DNA of 64,000 bases from an uncultured Lachnospiraceae bacterium. GTDB taxonomy: Bacteria > Bacillota > Clostridia > Lachnospirales > Lachnospiraceae. Location: contig CANPZL010000010.1 of the NCBI GenBank assembly GCA_947589055.1, positions 1 through 64,000 of the forward strand, given 5' to 3'. The notes below the pieces were generated by a model that was not told the DNA's origin, searched no databases, and saw only the letters and a list, made by a program, of their open reading frames with translations. Of the stretch, positions 40,669 to 47,815 are shown one piece after another (the first letter of the stretch is position 1; every line of letters begins with the position of its first letter). The translations under genes were made by a program, and so were the position numbers.

Positions 40669-40697
40669 TTGACAATCGGTTAGGGACGTGTGATACT
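40669..40697 (+). promoter_or_regulatory. Promoter for the metal ABC operon
   Basis: TTGACA (40669-40674) and GATACT (40692-40697) are 17 bases apart. A small dyad TGCAA/TTGCA lies just upstream. I do not see a clear Zur or MntR box. Confidence 0.6.
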
Positions 40698-40737
40698 GGA
40701 ATGGTATGCGGTGTTCCATAGCGATTGGAGGATTAAA

Positions 40738-41748
40738 ATGGGAAAAAAGATCGGGGCGGTGCTAGTCATTGCCCTTTTATGTATCGGGATAGGTTTGGCT
40801 TGTCTAAGTGCCGGAACAGATAGCAAGGAAGACGGGGAAAACGGAGATCGTCTTCAGGTGGTCTGTACTGTTTTTCCGGCGTATGATTGGGTGTGCAGGA
40901 TTGCCGGGGAAAAGGTAGAACCGGTGTATCTTATGGATACGGGTGTGGATCTTCACAGCTATCAGCCCTCGGCGGCCGATTTTGTCGCTATTGCGGAGTG
41001 TGATATTGTGATTTATGTGGGAGGACAGTCGGAAGCATGGATGCAGGCGGCGCTTGATAATTCGGTCAATGAGGATCTGCAGATACTTAACATGATGGAA
41101 TTATTGGGAGATACGGTAAAGGAAGAAACTCTTACAGAGGGAATGCAGGAAGAACAGCATTGGTTCCGGACGGAAGAAGAAACGGAATATGACGAGCATG
41201 TATGGCTTTCTCTGCGAAATGCGGAGGTGATCTGTAATGCCATTACAAAGGCCCTCGTTCGGGCGGATAAGGAAAATGCTGCCTATTACGAAAATCGAAA
41301 TCAGGAGTATCAGCAGGAACTGGCGAAACTGGATAAAGCATATGCGGATATGGTGGCAAAGGCAGCCACAAGGACGTTGCTGTTTGGCGACCGTTTCCCG
41401 TTCCGGTATCTGACAGAGGACTATGGATTGGAATATTATGCGGCGTTTCCGGGCTGTTCGGCGGAAACAAAAGCAAGCTTTGAAACGATTACTTTTTTGG
41501 CAGAAAAGCTGGAAAGTTGTCAGTTTACCGGCGTTTTGATCTTGGAAGATTCCAGTCCGGAGATTGCGCAGGCGATCATTGCAAATACAAAGGATAAGGA
41601 TCAGTCGATTTTCGTATTGGATTCCCTTCAGTCTGTAGACCGTACAAAAATCGAAGAGGGCGTAACGTATCTTTCAGTCATGGAAAACAACCGGATCGTA
41701 TTTGGACAGGCTCTGGGAATGGAGGAAGAAGCAAATGGCATTGATTAA
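40738..41748 (+). CDS. Metal ABC transporter substrate-binding lipoprotein
   Basis: This 336-residue lipoprotein has a short signal with lipobox GLAC (Cys near residue 22) and a ZnuA/PsaA-type fold. Probable metal ligands are the His in DTGVDLHSYQPS and the His in DEHVWLSL, plus acidic residues near LEDSS. Between them lies a loop rich in Glu and His (EEQHWFRTEEETEYDEH). Where ZnuA has HDAFGYL this protein has DRFPFRYL, so the third His is replaced. It would bind zinc or manganese outside the membrane. ATG 40738 follows TTGGAGG; the earlier frame start at 40690 is in the promoter. It overlaps the ATPase gene by 14 bases. Confidence 0.88.
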   Translation: MGKKIGAVLVIALLCIGIGLACLSAGTDSKEDGENGDRLQVVCTVFPAYDWVCRIAGEKVEPVYLMDTGVDLHSYQPSAADFVAIAECDIVIYVGGQSEAWMQAALDNSVNEDLQILNMMELLGDTVKEETLTEGMQEEQHWFRTEEETEYDEHVWLSLRNAEVICNAITKALVRADKENAAYYENRNQEYQQELAKLDKAYADMVAKAATRTLLFGDRFPFRYLTEDYGLEYYAAFPGCSAETKASFETITFLAEKLESCQFTGVLILEDSSPEIAQAIIANTKDKDQSIFVLDSLQSVDRTKIEEGVTYLSVMENNRIVFGQALGMEEEANGID

Positions 41749-42451
41749 GTGTCAGGGAGTGGCACTGGGTTATGAAGGAAAAGTCGTAACGGAAGAATTG
41801 AATTTTCAGGTAGAGCAGGGGGATTATCTTTGCATTGTTGGTGAAAACGGAGCCGGAAAAAGCACCTTGATGAAAGCACTGCTCCGGTTGATTGCACCGT
41901 TGCAGGGAACGATTGAAATCGGTGAGGGATTGCATGCGTCTGAGATCGGATATTTACCCCAGCAGACGCCGGTACAGAAAGATTTTCCTGCAACCGTATG
42001 GGAGATCGTGTTGTCTGGTTGTCTCAACCGCTGCGGTTGGAGACCTTTCTATAATAAGGAAGATAAAAAACGAGCCTTAGACGCCATGAGGAGGCTGGAA
42101 ATAGATGACCTTTCCGCACAGAGTTACCGGAACCTGTCCGGTGGGCAGCAACAGAGGGTTTTATTGGCACGGGCACTTTGTGCCACCCGGAAAATGCTGC
42201 TTCTGGATGAGCCGGCAGCCGGCTTGGATCCCGTGGTGACTGGGGAATTGTATGAACTGATACAAAAGTTGAATCAGGAGGGAATTACTGTTATCATGAT
42301 TTCCCATGATATAACGGCGGCGATCACTTATGCCAGTCACATTCTGCATATGGGAAGCCGGCGGCCCTTGTTTTTTGGAACAAAAGAAGCGTATCGGGAT
42401 ACAGACCTTTATCTAAGGCAGGGAGAAAGCGGGGTGACCGTTCATGCATAA
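41735..42451 (+). CDS. Metal ABC transporter ATPase
   Basis: This 238-residue ATPase of the ZnuC type powers uptake by the adjoining binding protein and permease. Walker A is GENGAGKST near residue 37, the signature is LSGGQQQRVLLARAL and Walker B is MLLLDEPAAGLD. The His switch follows in MISHDI. All catalytic residues are present. The start at 41735 overlaps the upstream gene by 14 bases and has GGAGGAAG ahead. It overlaps the permease gene by 8 bases, so the set is translationally coupled. Confidence 0.93.
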   Translation: MALIKCQGVALGYEGKVVTEELNFQVEQGDYLCIVGENGAGKSTLMKALLRLIAPLQGTIEIGEGLHASEIGYLPQQTPVQKDFPATVWEIVLSGCLNRCGWRPFYNKEDKKRALDAMRRLEIDDLSAQSYRNLSGGQQQRVLLARALCATRKMLLLDEPAAGLDPVVTGELYELIQKLNQEGITVIMISHDITAAITYASHILHMGSRRPLFFGTKEAYRDTDLYLRQGESGVTVHA

Positions 42452-43292
42452 TGTTTGGCAGCAGTTGACCACCTATTTTCAATATCCGTTTATCCGTTAT
42501 GCTATGATCGTGGGGATTTTGATCGCCTTATGCTCCTCCTTGCTTGGTGTGACGCTGGTGTTAAAACGGTATTCTTTTATCGGAGACGGATTATCTCATG
42601 TTGCGTTTGGGGCGTTAGCAGTAGGAACCATTTTTCAGATAGAGAACGACTTAATTGTGGTATTGCCGATTACTGTACTGGCGGCTGTTTTACTGCTGTG
42701 GACGGGACAGAATACAAAGATTAAGGGAGATGCCGCCATTGCTATGATCTCCGTTGCTTCGCTGGCGGTAGGGTATCTGATCATGAATGTGTTCTCCACC
42801 TCGGCGAATATCTCAGGAGATGTATGCAGTACATTATTTGGTTCCGCTTCGATCCTGACCCTTTCCCGAATGGATGTGTGGGTCAGTATTCTCATGTCTA
42901 TCGTGGTGGTTGCCATCTTTATTCTTTGCTATAACCGGATATTTGCAGTCACTTTTGATTAAACCTTTGCAACTGCTACCGGAATCTCCGCTAGAAAATA
43001 TAACCTGCTGCTTGCAGTGATCACAGCAGTGATCATCGTGCTTGCCATGAAGCTGGTAGGCTCCCTGCTGATCTCGGCGCTGGTGATCTTTCCGGCGTTA
43101 TCTGCTATGCGGATTTTTCAGAGCTTTCGGCTTGTTATCATCTGTTCTGCTCTGTTGTCCATGCTCTGTGCCGGACTTGGTATCTTATTGTCTATTCTTG
43201 CCGATACGCCTGCCGGTGCCACGATCGTAGCAGTCAATATATTGGTTTTCTTCTTGTGTGCACTGATAGGGGTTCTCCTGAAAAGACAATAG
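42444..43292 (+). pseudogene. Metal ABC transporter permease with an internal stop (ZnuB type)
   Basis: The frame from ATG 42444 encodes a ZnuB-type permease (WQQLTTYFQYPFIRYA, GVTLVLKRYSFIGDGLSHVAF), but a TAA at 42960-42962 stops it after 172 residues. The same frame continues without further stops to 43292 and yields the missing part (TFATATGISARKYNLLL, then MKLVGSLLISALVIFPALSA). Relatives usually have Glu here (FDExFA), so a GAA-to-TAA change explains the break. Read through, the protein has 282 codons, the normal family length. With both other subunits intact, this is a recent mutation, a sequencing error or possible readthrough. A separate 91-residue C-terminal piece could start at GTG 43017, without a good ribosome site. 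Confidence 0.85.
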
Positions 43293-43332: not shown

Positions 43333-43410
43333 TAGAGTGTGGTTTATGGGAAAGCGATGTTAAAGGAAGCTGTGAAACCTGCCGACAGGGTGGAGGTGTG
43401 ATAGATAGAA

Positions 43411-46400
43411 TTGACTAAGAATATAATTTCAACCAAGGCAAATACCTTATACGCAATGAAAAATTTGATAACCCACGCCAGAATCGAGAAGATGTATATC
43501 TTAAGGGTAAAAGATTACTGGAGGGACAAAAACAAGGTTTGCAGAGAGATTCAGGACAGATTTGAAGGCTGTCGTATCGTAGTGCGAAGTTCCTCCAGCC
43601 ACGAGGATAGCTGGAAAACCTCTAATGCCGGTCATTATAAGAGTGTTTTGGATGTGGATTCCGCCAGCTTAAATGAGATCCAGACCTCCATTGATGAAGT
43701 CATTGCTTCCTATGAAGAGGATATGGAGTCTGCGGCGGAGGAGCAGGTGCTGATTCAGCGTCAGGCAACGAATGTCTGTGTGAGCGGTGTAGTATTTACC
43801 AGAGATTTACGGGAAAACCGCCCGTATTATCTGGTGAATTATGATGATCTGGGTTCTACGGATTGTGTTACCAGCGGACGTGGCGGGAAAATGCTTTGGA
43901 TCGCAAGGGACGTTGAACAGGACCAGCTGGAATTCCACTGGCAGCAGCTGATTCAGGCAGTACGGGAAGTGGAAAGCATTATAGAAGGAATCCCTCTGGA
44001 TATTGAATTTGCGATCAACAGTAACAATCAGGTGATCTTGTTTCAGATAAGACCTTTGGCAGCCGCTAATTATCATACGTCCGGCTTTGATGAAACCAAG
44101 TTTTATATCTGTAAGCGGAAAATGAAGAAGGAATATGAAAAACGTCTGGATGTGCGGACCGGACAGCCTATGATCCTGTCAGATATGGCATTCTGGAATC
44201 CATCGGAAATTATCGGATCAAACCCCCGTCCGCTGGATTATTCCCTGTACCGCCGGATCATTACACATCGGGCATGGAATGAAGGACTGCGCCCGCTGGG
44301 ATATTGCAGTCTGGATGAAGATCTGATGTATCAGGTGGGAAACAAGCCTTATATCAATCTGAATTATTCCTTTTATTCCCTGATACCGGCATCATTGCCG
44401 CAAACGCTGATTGATAAGCTGGTCAACTATTATCATGAACGGTTAAAGGAGGATTTATCGGCACATGATAAGATCGAATTTGAGATTGTGTTCAGCTGTT
44501 TTGATTTTATGACGGAGGAAAACAGCAAAAAATTATTGGAACATGGATTTTCCGAGCAGGAACGATGTCAGATTGTTACGGAAGTCAAGAAACTCACTAT
44601 GGAAGCCATTTACGGGCATAAGGCGATCTTGGCACAGGATATGGGTTCCTTGAATATTCTGGAATTTACCCGTTCGGAAATTGAAAAGATAGGAGAAAAC
44701 TGTAACAGCGTAAAAGAGTTGATTGAGACGGTAAAATGGCTGTTGGAAGCCATTACCCGGTATGGAACCCCGCAGTTTGCACGACAGGCAAGAATGGCGT
44801 TTATGGCGAGGGCTTTTTTGCGTTCTTTGGTGGAAGCCGGCTATTATACCCAAAGGGAAGCCGATCGTTTTATGCAGTCGATTTCAACCGTATCTACAGA
44901 ATTCAACGAAGATTTTGAGTCCTATTCGGAAGGAAAGATGAGTAAGGAGGAGTTTGACTCAAAATATGGACATTTGCGGAGCGGTACATATAATATCCGC
45001 ACGGAGCGGTATGATGCGATGAATTTTCGGCCGGTATCGGCAAAGGGCAGGCATATAAAAACAGAAAAAAATATCCATTTCCCTATGGAACCCCTTAAAA
45101 GGGCGTTACAGGAGCATGCAATGAATATCCCGGCAGAGGCGTTTCAAAAGTTTTTAGTTTCTGCGATCGAACAGCGGGAATATTTCAAATTTGAATTTAC
45201 CCGTTCACTAAGTCTGGTGATTGAGTGGATCCGCAAGATTGGTCAGTTGATGGGATTTTTGATCGATGAGTTATCTTGGCTTACCATTGAGGATTTGGAG
45301 CGTTATGACCGGACGCTGGATATTGATGATTTAAAGGAGGAATGGACAGCTCTGATACAAAGACGGCATGAAGCATTTCGGCAAAACCGTCTGGTACTTC
45401 TTCCGGAACTGATCTTTTCATCTGGCAGCATTGATATTATTCCGGTCTATGAGGCAAGACCGAATTTTATAACCAGTAAGCGGGTGGCAGGCGAAGTAGT
45501 GCTTTTAGAGGAGGAACGGGATTCAAATATCAGTGGAAAGATCGTGGTAGTGCCGCAGGCGGATCCCGGCTATGAATGGATCTTTACCAAGAATATTAAA
45601 GGCTTTATTACAAAGTATGGTGGTGCGGCGTCGCATATGGCGATCCGTTGTGCCGAATTTGATATTCCGGCAGCGGTAGGGTGCGGAGCGAAGTTATATG
45701 CCAGTATTTCCAAGATGGCATATCTGGAATTGGACTGTAAAAACGGAACGATCCAAGAGGGTATCCAGTATAAGAATCTGCATGCCTTGATTACCCAGCG
45801 GGAGGGTGTGAATCAATACGGTGATGCCACGGATATTCTGGAATCAAAGTATATTCGCTTCTATGAGCTGATGGGATTTATTCCGAAACCGGTATCGAAC
45901 CATACGAAGAATTTTGAACGGTTATTTGATGACAAGATTGACCTGTTGATCGTAGTGGGCGGAGGCGCTTTGGATCCAAAGTGGTATGACCGGGAGCATG
46001 AGGAGGAAACCCAGCCCAATCGGGATCGGACGGAAGAAAAGATGATCAAATACTGTGTTGAACATGCGATCCCTATCGTAGCGACCTGTAGGGGAATGCA
46101 GTATATCAACGTATTGTATGGCGGAAAGTTATCCTATCATCCAAAGCTGCCGGTAGAACGCCCAAGAGGTAAGGATCATAAGGTGCATCTGCTTACGGAA
46201 AACAGAGATATTTATGTAAATAATTACCATCAGGATGTGATCTTTGAAGGCGGGTTAGCCCCCTGTTTTACCCCTATGGCCATCGATGAAGAAAATCATA
46301 TTATCGAAGCTTATTATTCGGAAGAAATGAAACTGCTAGGGCTTCAATGGCATCCGGAGCGGCAGTTTGAAACCGGGGAGGCGGAAGAAGAAACCAGGCG

Positions 46401-46437
46401 TATTATCGTGAATTTTATACAAAAGCATATTCATTAA
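43411..46437 (+). CDS. Fusion of PEP-synthase-like (glutamine kinase-like) and class I amidotransferase-like hydrolase
   Basis: This 1008-residue protein joins two enzymes. The N-terminal part has a PEP-synthase/PPDK-type ATP-binding domain (RIVVRSSSSHED near 55-66, TSNAGHYKSVLDV near 70-82) and a mobile phospho-His domain with GGAASHMAIRCAEF (His742). The C-terminal 170 residues are a class I amidotransferase/peptidase C26-like domain with nucleophile Cys893 (VATCRGMQ) and the pair WHPE (His981, Glu983). In Campylobacter jejuni a PEP-synthase-like enzyme (Cj1418) is a glutamine kinase and a C26-like protein (Cj1417) hydrolyses gamma-glutamyl-CDP-amidate; here similar parts are fused. I infer phosphoramidate chemistry, but no cytidylyltransferase lies nearby. 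TTG 43411 is the likely start, 13 bases after GGAGGTG. Confidence 0.75.
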   Translation: MTKNIISTKANTLYAMKNLITHARIEKMYILRVKDYWRDKNKVCREIQDRFEGCRIVVRSSSSHEDSWKTSNAGHYKSVLDVDSASLNEIQTSIDEVIASYEEDMESAAEEQVLIQRQATNVCVSGVVFTRDLRENRPYYLVNYDDLGSTDCVTSGRGGKMLWIARDVEQDQLEFHWQQLIQAVREVESIIEGIPLDIEFAINSNNQVILFQIRPLAAANYHTSGFDETKFYICKRKMKKEYEKRLDVRTGQPMILSDMAFWNPSEIIGSNPRPLDYSLYRRIITHRAWNEGLRPLGYCSLDEDLMYQVGNKPYINLNYSFYSLIPASLPQTLIDKLVNYYHERLKEDLSAHDKIEFEIVFSCFDFMTEENSKKLLEHGFSEQERCQIVTEVKKLTMEAIYGHKAILAQDMGSLNILEFTRSEIEKIGENCNSVKELIETVKWLLEAITRYGTPQFARQARMAFMARAFLRSLVEAGYYTQREADRFMQSISTVSTEFNEDFESYSEGKMSKEEFDSKYGHLRSGTYNIRTERYDAMNFRPVSAKGRHIKTEKNIHFPMEPLKRALQEHAMNIPAEAFQKFLVSAIEQREYFKFEFTRSLSLVIEWIRKIGQLMGFLIDELSWLTIEDLERYDRTLDIDDLKEEWTALIQRRHEAFRQNRLVLLPELIFSSGSIDIIPVYEARPNFITSKRVAGEVVLLEEERDSNISGKIVVVPQADPGYEWIFTKNIKGFITKYGGAASHMAIRCAEFDIPAAVGCGAKLYASISKMAYLELDCKNGTIQEGIQYKNLHALITQREGVNQYGDATDILESKYIRFYELMGFIPKPVSNHTKNFERLFDDKIDLLIVVGGGALDPKWYDREHEEETQPNRDRTEEKMIKYCVEHAIPIVATCRGMQYINVLYGGKLSYHPKLPVERPRGKDHKVHLLTENRDIYVNNYHQDVIFEGGLAPCFTPMAIDEENHIIEAYYSEEMKLLGLQWHPERQFETGEAEEETRRIIVNFIQKHIH

Positions 46438-46640: not shown

Positions 46641-47150
46641 ATGTTTGAAATTGGCGATTATATTGTATGCGGCAATAACGGCATTTGTATCGTGGAAAAT
46701 GTTAATACCATTGAAGTTCCCGATGTTGATCCAAACAGACTCTACTATATCCTGCGTCCGGTGTTTGCAAAGAGCAGTGTGGTATATATTCCGGTAGATA
46801 ATGATAAGATCATCATGCGGAAGGTTTTAACAAAAGAACAGGTAAATGAATTGATCGACCGGATTCCGGAAATTGAAACGATCGGTGAAAGTAATGACAA
46901 ACAGCGGGAAGAGCGGTTTAAGGAATGTATGCGGCGGTACGATTGCAGTGACTGGATTCGAGTGATCAAAACCTTATATCTGCGGAAGCAGGAGCGGGTA
47001 GAGCGGGGACAGAAGGTAACAGCTACAGATGCCAGGTATCTGAAAACAGCGGAAGATAACCTGTATGGTGAATTTGCAATGGCATTAGGAATCGAAAAAA
47101 ACCAAGTGGAAGAATTTATCGAAAAACGAATTGGCAGTCATAAGGAATGA
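46641..47150 (+). CDS. CarD-family transcriptional regulator
   Basis: This 169-residue protein has an N-terminal CarD/TRCF-type RNA-polymerase interaction domain (FEIGDYIVCGNNGICIVENV, LYYILRPVFAKSSVVYIPVD) and a C-terminal helical domain (RKQERVERGQKVTATDARYLKTAE). CarD-like proteins bind RNA polymerase beta and stabilise the open complex, often at rRNA promoters. AGGAGGAAG precedes the ATG. It has its own terminator. Neighbouring genes do not indicate a special target. Confidence 0.92.
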   Translation: MFEIGDYIVCGNNGICIVENVNTIEVPDVDPNRLYYILRPVFAKSSVVYIPVDNDKIIMRKVLTKEQVNELIDRIPEIETIGESNDKQREERFKECMRRYDCSDWIRVIKTLYLRKQERVERGQKVTATDARYLKTAEDNLYGEFAMALGIEKNQVEEFIEKRIGSHKE

Positions 47151-47323: not shown

Positions 47324-47815
47324 ATGGATACATCTCTAAAACAGGACGAAACCGGAAAAAACGCACAGGCGCCCATCCTGCCTGCCGTTAAACAGGCGCT
47401 GCTGGATATGGTTGATAAAAATGCGTATATGAAACGGTTAAAGATCGAGCTTTTAGATATTCAAAAAGGCTTTATTAAAAGCAGGCTTTGGGTGACGCAG
47501 GAGGTCTTAAATCCCTATGGTTCCGTTCATGGCGGCTGTCTGTATTCGCTGGCGGATATTACTGCCGGACTGGCTGCCAGTACTTATAATGTATATTCCT
47601 CTACCATCGACGGACATATGGAATATGTGTTGCCGGCTATGAATACGGAATTTATCATCTGCGAGGCAAGGGAGATTCATCAGGGACTGCATGTTTCCTT
47701 ATATGAAGCATGGCTGTATGATGATAAGAACCAGCTGGTGGATAAGGCAGGCTTTACCTTCTATATGATGCGCCGCAGCATCGTACCGGAAGAAGAAAGT
47801 AAGGGACGTTTTTAA
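47324..47815 (+). CDS. PaaI-family hot-dog thioesterase
   Basis: This 163-residue protein has the hot-dog fold with the family motif NPYGSVHGGCLYSLAD near residue 64, in which HGG and the following Asp form the active site of PaaI-type acyl-CoA thioesterases. The C-terminal strands LYEAWLYDDKNQLVDKAGF match too. It cleaves an acyl- or aryl-CoA; which one is unknown. AAAGGTG precedes the ATG. The serine acetyltransferase gene follows after 40 bases. Confidence 0.88.
   Translation: MDTSLKQDETGKNAQAPILPAVKQALLDMVDKNAYMKRLKIELLDIQKGFIKSRLWVTQEVLNPYGSVHGGCLYSLADITAGLAASTYNVYSSTIDGHMEYVLPAMNTEFIICEAREIHQGLHVSLYEAWLYDDKNQLVDKAGFTFYMMRRSIVPEEESKGRF

Follow-up and report, generated by a model that had tools for sequence, protein, structure and literature searches.

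A glutamine-kinase-like enzyme fused to an amide hydrolase in gut Lachnospiraceae, and a possible CTP-independent path to phosphoramidate

The window, a stretch of 64,000 nucleotides from an uncultured Lachnospiraceae bacterium, contains a gene whose predicted product joins a glutamine-kinase-like part to a class I amidotransferase-like part (Table 1). Within the 1008-residue protein, PPDK_N, the PEP-utilizers mobile domain (residues 709 to 779) and Peptidase_C26/GATase (residues 804 to 989) were all found above their Pfam cut-offs, and His742 of the phospho-histidine domain falls within GGAASHMAIRCAE. Pfam and the alignments thus confirmed the original prediction that a single frame joins an ATP-binding region, a phospho-histidine domain and a class I amidotransferase-like domain, and the domain border, which had been placed at residue 840, was moved to near residues 785 to 788 by Pfam, NCBIfam, alignment and structure match. 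The predicted structure of the fused protein had a mean pLDDT of 89.5 and a pTM of 0.78. An assembly or frameshift artefact was ruled out, as the fusion was intact in 26 further loci among the matches listed (near-identical copies of some genomes included), and it is carried by genomes closed in one contig (G704, G763 and G813) as well as by that of the isolate Lachnoclostridium sp. An196 (L084:6989-10045). Among relatives, a search recovered the fusion in G001, in G006, in G024 and, as two pieces at contig ends, in G007.

Table 1. Features of the fused gene, its neighbours in the window, and symporter genes near related kinases elsewhere
Feature	Position	Strand	Description and basis
Zinc ABC-transporter set, ZnuA/ZnuC/ZnuB-like	40690-43292		Upstream; named by eye
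Shine-Dalgarno-like GGAGGTG	43392-43398	+	12 bases 5' of the TTG start; sequence
Fused glutamine-kinase-like/amide-hydrolase gene	43411-46437	+	1008 aa, TTG start, uninterrupted frame; Pfam/NCBIfam domains and homologues
Kinase part, residues 1-785	43411-45765	+	ATP-binding region, glutamine-kinase-type central region, phospho-His domain; NF004508/PRK05849
Mobile phospho-histidine domain, residues 709-779	45535-45747	+	PF00391
His742 codon	45634-45636	+	Predicted phosphorylated histidine; conserved in alignments
Class I amidotransferase/C26 hydrolase part, residues 788-1008	45772-46434	+	PF07722, PF00117; SpuA/PuuD structure matches
Cys893 codon	46087-46089	+	Predicted catalytic nucleophile; invariant in alignments
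His981 and Glu983 codons	46351-46359	+	Predicted catalytic triad; invariant in 30-row alignment, retained throughout the fused and duo rows
CarD-like regulator	46641-47150		Downstream
PaaI-like thioesterase	47324-47815		Downstream
Symporters near cytidylyltransferase-less kinases	L041:12383-13933, L079:3815-5356, L099:3437-4987, L049:6508-8055, L047:12536-13996, L044:6272-7729		

The fused gene lies among genes that change from genus to genus. It is preceded in the window by a zinc ABC-transporter set and followed by a CarD-like regulator and a PaaI-like thioesterase. In relatives of the same genus, a ZIP-type transporter lies directly upstream in place of the zinc ABC set, and a zinc-linked neighbour is thus recurrent within the genus. 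Quite different housekeeping genes surround the fusion in other genera, and a comparison of the fusion loci found no neighbour common to all fusion lineages, so a conserved operon partner was rejected. Moreover, a surface-polysaccharide (capsule) cluster was found near the gene in none of the fusion loci read, where the neighbours were housekeeping genes.

The kinase half was assigned by NCBIfam to the PRK05849/NF004508 glutamine-kinase family, as residues 3 to 782 scored 781.9 bits against a cut-off of 501. Models of PEP synthase gave at most 56 bits (cut-offs 598 to 976) and the rifampicin (rifamycin) phosphotransferase model gave 29 bits (cut-off 999), and the profile check therefore upheld the original prediction of a glutamine-kinase-like half. 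The best structural match of residues 3 to 785, taken from the predicted structure, was rifampin phosphotransferase (Listeria, 5hv1/5fbu), which has the same order of ATP-binding, middle and phospho-histidine domains but only 17% identity; identity as either PEP synthase or rifampin phosphotransferase was rejected on the family scores. The closest known kinase is Cj1418 of Campylobacter jejuni, which we take to be a PRK05849 member and an L-glutamine kinase (EC 2.7.3.13). To our knowledge, glutamine kinase is the sole enzyme family that phosphorylates an amide nitrogen, and we know of no characterised role for it other than the making of CDP-linked phosphoramidate for capsule. Like Cj1418, the fused protein passes the family cut-off and keeps the phospho-histidine domain and the conserved central motifs, whereas it differs in being joined to a hydrolase, in lying outside a capsule cluster and in having no cytidylyltransferase partner in its genome.

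The hydrolase half was more distant from its nearest family. The closest NCBIfam model for residues 794 to 986 was gamma-glutamyl-CDP-amidate hydrolase (NF045546), the family of Cj1417, at 60.8 bits against a cut-off of 250, and the PuuD family model gave 33.2 bits against 266, on which PuuD identity was rejected. The original prediction of a Cj1417-like half therefore held as to rank, with the same Cys-His-Glu triad and NF045546 ahead of PuuD, but the score fell far under the family cut-off, and the enzyme that makes the known substrate of Cj1417 is absent. NF045546 appears to be a narrow model, because five hydrolases from loci that carry the full gene set also scored under its cut-off (94 to 182 bits), and the shortfall of the fused hydrolase therefore says little about its chemistry. 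Among solved structures, the best matches of residues 788 to 1008 were the C26 gamma-glutamyl hydrolases SpuA (Z 24.7) and PuuD (Z 24.4), at about 23% identity (VIA-align, predicted structure); the fused hydrolase differs from these in its low score to the PuuD model and in being joined to a kinase. A phosphoramidate or N-phosphorylated metabolite pathway, as originally proposed, is a fair reading of the rank order of the two family assignments.

When fused to synthases, class I GATase domains usually serve as ammonia sources, and the GATase fold of the C-terminal domain would allow the same here, with hydrolysis of plain glutamine and channelling of ammonia to the kinase half, which would phosphorylate ammonia or another nitrogen acceptor. 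We consider this reading highly improbable, as the closest folds and the Pfam family are those of C26 gamma-glutamyl hydrolases and the kinase half retains the conserved positions of stand-alone glutamine kinases.

Both active sites appear to be under constraint. Cys893, His981 and Glu983 were invariant in an alignment of 30 hydrolases, and R797, D808, R871, C893, R894, H923, N937, H981, E983 and R984 were kept in the fused clade as in the hydrolases of three-gene clusters. Compared with the nearest of those, the fused hydrolases had four weak but consistent differences (positions 848, 910, 953 and 988), none at an invariant active-site position. The same alignment gave no residues that separate CDP-amidate hydrolases from N-phosphoglutamine hydrolases, and we know of no residue pattern for CDP binding. 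Between the window gene and its two nearest relatives, dN was 0.05 to 0.06 for the hydrolase and 0.13 to 0.14 for the kinase, quoted alone because dS had reached saturation in every comparison except one. Both halves thus evolve slowly, the hydrolase more so and under strong constraint, which is the pattern expected of two working active sites and does not by itself identify the substrate. In the kinase half, 96 of the 103 positions conserved in 36 kinases of three-gene clusters were kept in at least 90% of the fused kinases. That retention speaks against a different amide, such as another gamma-glutamyl compound, being the substrate of both halves in place of glutamine; the kinase is only 33% identical to kinases of clusters that also carry a Cj1415-like kinase, and the hydrolase scores under its own family cut-off, but we give the idea little weight.

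To place the fusion among its relatives, the best 80 loci of a named-genome scan were taken; Campylobacter was not among these, and family models and three-gene clusters were used for comparison in place of the Cj1416 to Cj1418 sequences. Sorting by gene content, which took in window, genome and named loci and counted a few genomes twice, divided 80 kinases into 36 trios (kinase, hydrolase and Cj1416-like cytidylyltransferase together at the locus), 27 fusions, 8 pairs, 8 kinases alone and 1 other. Trios occurred in Thaumarchaeota, Woesearchaeota, Halobacteria, Bacteroidota, Synergistota, Omnitrophota and others, and in most lineages outside the fusion clade and its sisters, from archaea to Bacteroidota, the three genes were adjacent. 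Fusions occurred only in Lachnospiraceae-like Firmicutes, bar a few MAGs with apparently wrong labels. Within the same family, the family model detected the kinase in 14 of 397 genomes, among which frames of about 1010 to 1040 residues were fusions.

The trios had features of their own. Many trio kinases carry an N-terminal nucleotidyltransferase domain, CTP_transf_like or MobA-like (P0004 at L019:2834-5614, L134, L138, L144, L145 and L146), and neither domain was found in the fused clade. Some complete trio clusters hold two further conserved genes (L050:10398-11015 and L050:10981-11703; also L051, L139, L118 and L121), one without a Pfam or NCBIfam match and one formyltransferase-like, a hint of an undescribed modification beside the phosphoramidate set. 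Archaeal trios were found in marine Thaumarchaeota, Haloferax, Woesearchaeota and Altiarchaeales (L126, L129, L132, L144, L123, L124 and L121), and their gene content suggests that phosphoramidate surface groups may occur in archaea.

Phylogenetic trees of the two halves, built separately, pointed to the same history. All 27 fused rows grouped as one clade in the kinase tree (SH-aLRT 100), nested within a 35-row group that lacks the cytidylyltransferase (support 94) and that also contains three pairs and five Lachnospiraceae with the kinase alone; a fourth pair without the cytidylyltransferase (L102) fell just outside. In the hydrolase tree, the fused rows again formed a clade (100/99), which joined the four cytidylyltransferase-less pairs with support of 100/98. 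In Coprococcus-type pairs, the kinase and hydrolase genes lie 2 to 3 bases apart or overlap, and such a close pair is a plausible forerunner of the fusion. Because trios flank the midpoint root on both sides, the simplest view is that the trio is ancestral and the cytidylyltransferase was lost. We conclude from the trees that the fusion arose once.

Taylor and Raushel reportedly assigned the synthesis of a CDP-linked glutamine to Cj1416, its cleavage to Cj1417 and the phosphorylation of the product so released to Cj1415. The cytidylyltransferase of step two is gone from the locus in the fusion clade and in its sister lineages, and whole genomes were searched with a Cj1416-like profile (A2) built from 20 cytidylyltransferases. 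Trio genomes gave 397 (G046), 393 (G695) and 331 bits (G531), and the best matches in fusion genomes were 110 (G813), 110 (G521), 101 (G000), 94 (G763), 90 (G024), 70 (G006), 56 (G001) and 39 bits (G742); the single-contig, 2.86-Mb genome G704 gave no match. Five strong matches from G000, G813, G763 and G024 did not group with the 35 true orthologues, whose clade had support of 98/95; as judged from this placement on the tree, they are distant paralogues. For step four, a Cj1415-like kinase profile found orthologues in the trio genomes G695 and G531, no match in six fusion genomes (G704, G763, G813, G521, G742 and G024), and in G000 and G001 matches of 160 to 164 bits only inside frames of 615 to 626 aa, which look like sulphate-assimilation fusions. 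Several of the genomes are fragmented MAGs, and the main weight for these absences is carried by G704, G763 and G813, each a single contig, with the other genomes in agreement. The original prediction had noted that the step-two enzyme was absent from the window and that another nucleotidyl acceptor or a distant gene was needed; the absence now extends to the fusion genomes searched, and the distant gene was not found. The genome search that it had proposed thus returned neither a Cj1416 orthologue nor a stand-alone Cj1415-like kinase.

The classical route could be kept if gamma-glutamyl-CDP-amidate, or some other nucleotidyl amidate, were made by a distant or unrelated nucleotidyltransferase encoded elsewhere in the genome; the fused hydrolase would then free the nucleoside diphosphoramidate from it. 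The hydrolase does retain the conserved residues of three-gene-cluster hydrolases, and the window genome encodes two NTP transferases of about 100 bits to the A2 profile. One of these, however, is flanked by phosphonopyruvate decarboxylase and PEP mutase, the second has an aminotransferase domain attached, and with all five placed matches outside the trio clade, a step-two enzyme hidden among the NTP transferases of fusion genomes was rejected. Moreover, the paralogues are not common to fusion genomes (none in G704 and weak in G742 and G001), and neither a stand-alone Cj1415-like kinase nor a capsule context accompanies the fusion. We regard a retained CDP route as unlikely. The phosphonate cluster itself lies on contig C4 of the window genome (L156:4112-7357) and comprises phosphonopyruvate decarboxylase, the NTP transferase and PEP mutase, the last preceded by an apparent cytidylyltransferase-type N-terminal part.

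The same absences bear on the capsule. The O-methyl phosphoramidate capsule pathway has a Cj1416-like CTP:phosphoglutamine cytidylyltransferase, a Cj1415-like cytidine diphosphoramidate kinase and a location in a polysaccharide cluster, and all three were lacking in the fusion genomes and loci examined. The Cj1415 to Cj1418 pathway was therefore rejected for the window genome, which lacks steps two and four and has no surface-polysaccharide cluster near the gene. We conclude that a Campylobacter-type phosphoramidate capsule group is unlikely here, because there is no Cj1416 orthologue and no stand-alone Cj1415-like kinase and the gene lies outside capsule clusters. More probably, the protein either produces free phosphoramidate or recycles the precursor of that compound.

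Some sister lineages of the fusion clade have the kinase alone. Five such loci (L099, L106, L109, L111 and L113) occupy a conserved site beside housekeeping genes of the pyrH/frr/dxr type, and profile searches of three kinase-only genomes (G497, G467 and G555) detected neither a hydrolase orthologue (at most 62 bits to the hydrolase profile) nor a cytidylyltransferase orthologue. With neither enzyme in these sisters, phosphoramidate may not be what the clade as a whole is for, and the kinase-only genomes give the best indication that N-phosphoglutamine could be important in its own right. Sodium-coupled symporters (PutP-like SSF and, once, SNF) were also noticed, post hoc, at most a few genes away from kinases that lack a cytidylyltransferase, in several distinct lineages (Table 1). 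Fusion genomes encode 0 to 3 SSF genes each, and the sole SSF match of G763 is the neighbour of the fusion.

If N-phosphoglutamine is a useful product, the kinase could make it for regulation or as a reserve, and the fused hydrolase could remove it, the halves being counter-regulated and not sequential. Consistent with such an arrangement, the kinase and hydrolase stay as adjacent genes in other lineages, and a role in controlling nitrogen or osmotic state would fit the Na+/proline-type symporter found near the gene in several cytidylyltransferase-less lineages. However, the fused protein shows no regulatory domain, and the symporter link, itself a post hoc observation, is missing from other fusion lineages. 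We regard opposed halves of this kind as quite unlikely.

The reaction that we favour is sequential and CTP independent. The kinase half would convert glutamine to N-phosphoglutamine, and the C-terminal Cys-His-Glu domain would then attack the gamma-carbonyl of N-phosphoglutamine. Hydrolysis would release free phosphoramidate and leave glutamate, without passing through a CDP-linked intermediate. The reaction is favoured because the fusion is single in origin, kept and constrained, and because the genomes searched yielded neither the step-two enzyme nor a Cj1415-like kinase standing alone. Against it, no gene that would use phosphoramidate downstream came to light, and no residue tells the binding of CDP from that of phosphate, which leaves some chance of a nucleotide substrate. 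On balance, we put at close to even the chance that glutamine kinase and amidohydrolase, fused in this protein, act without a cytidylyltransferase and yield glutamate and free phosphoramidate, a judgement drawn from genome comparison. The literature searched, which lay mostly outside subscription journals, held no description of such a fusion.

Steps one and three of a known pathway have been kept and fused, step two has been dropped and the gene lies outside capsule clusters, which implies that P-N chemistry serves another purpose in these common gut bacteria. We propose tentatively, and with somewhat less than even confidence, that gut Lachnospiraceae have a dedicated CTP-independent phosphoramidate synthase, such that a pathway for exported polysaccharide would have been turned to core metabolism and phosphoramidate or N-phosphoglutamine would be a real metabolite of these bacteria.
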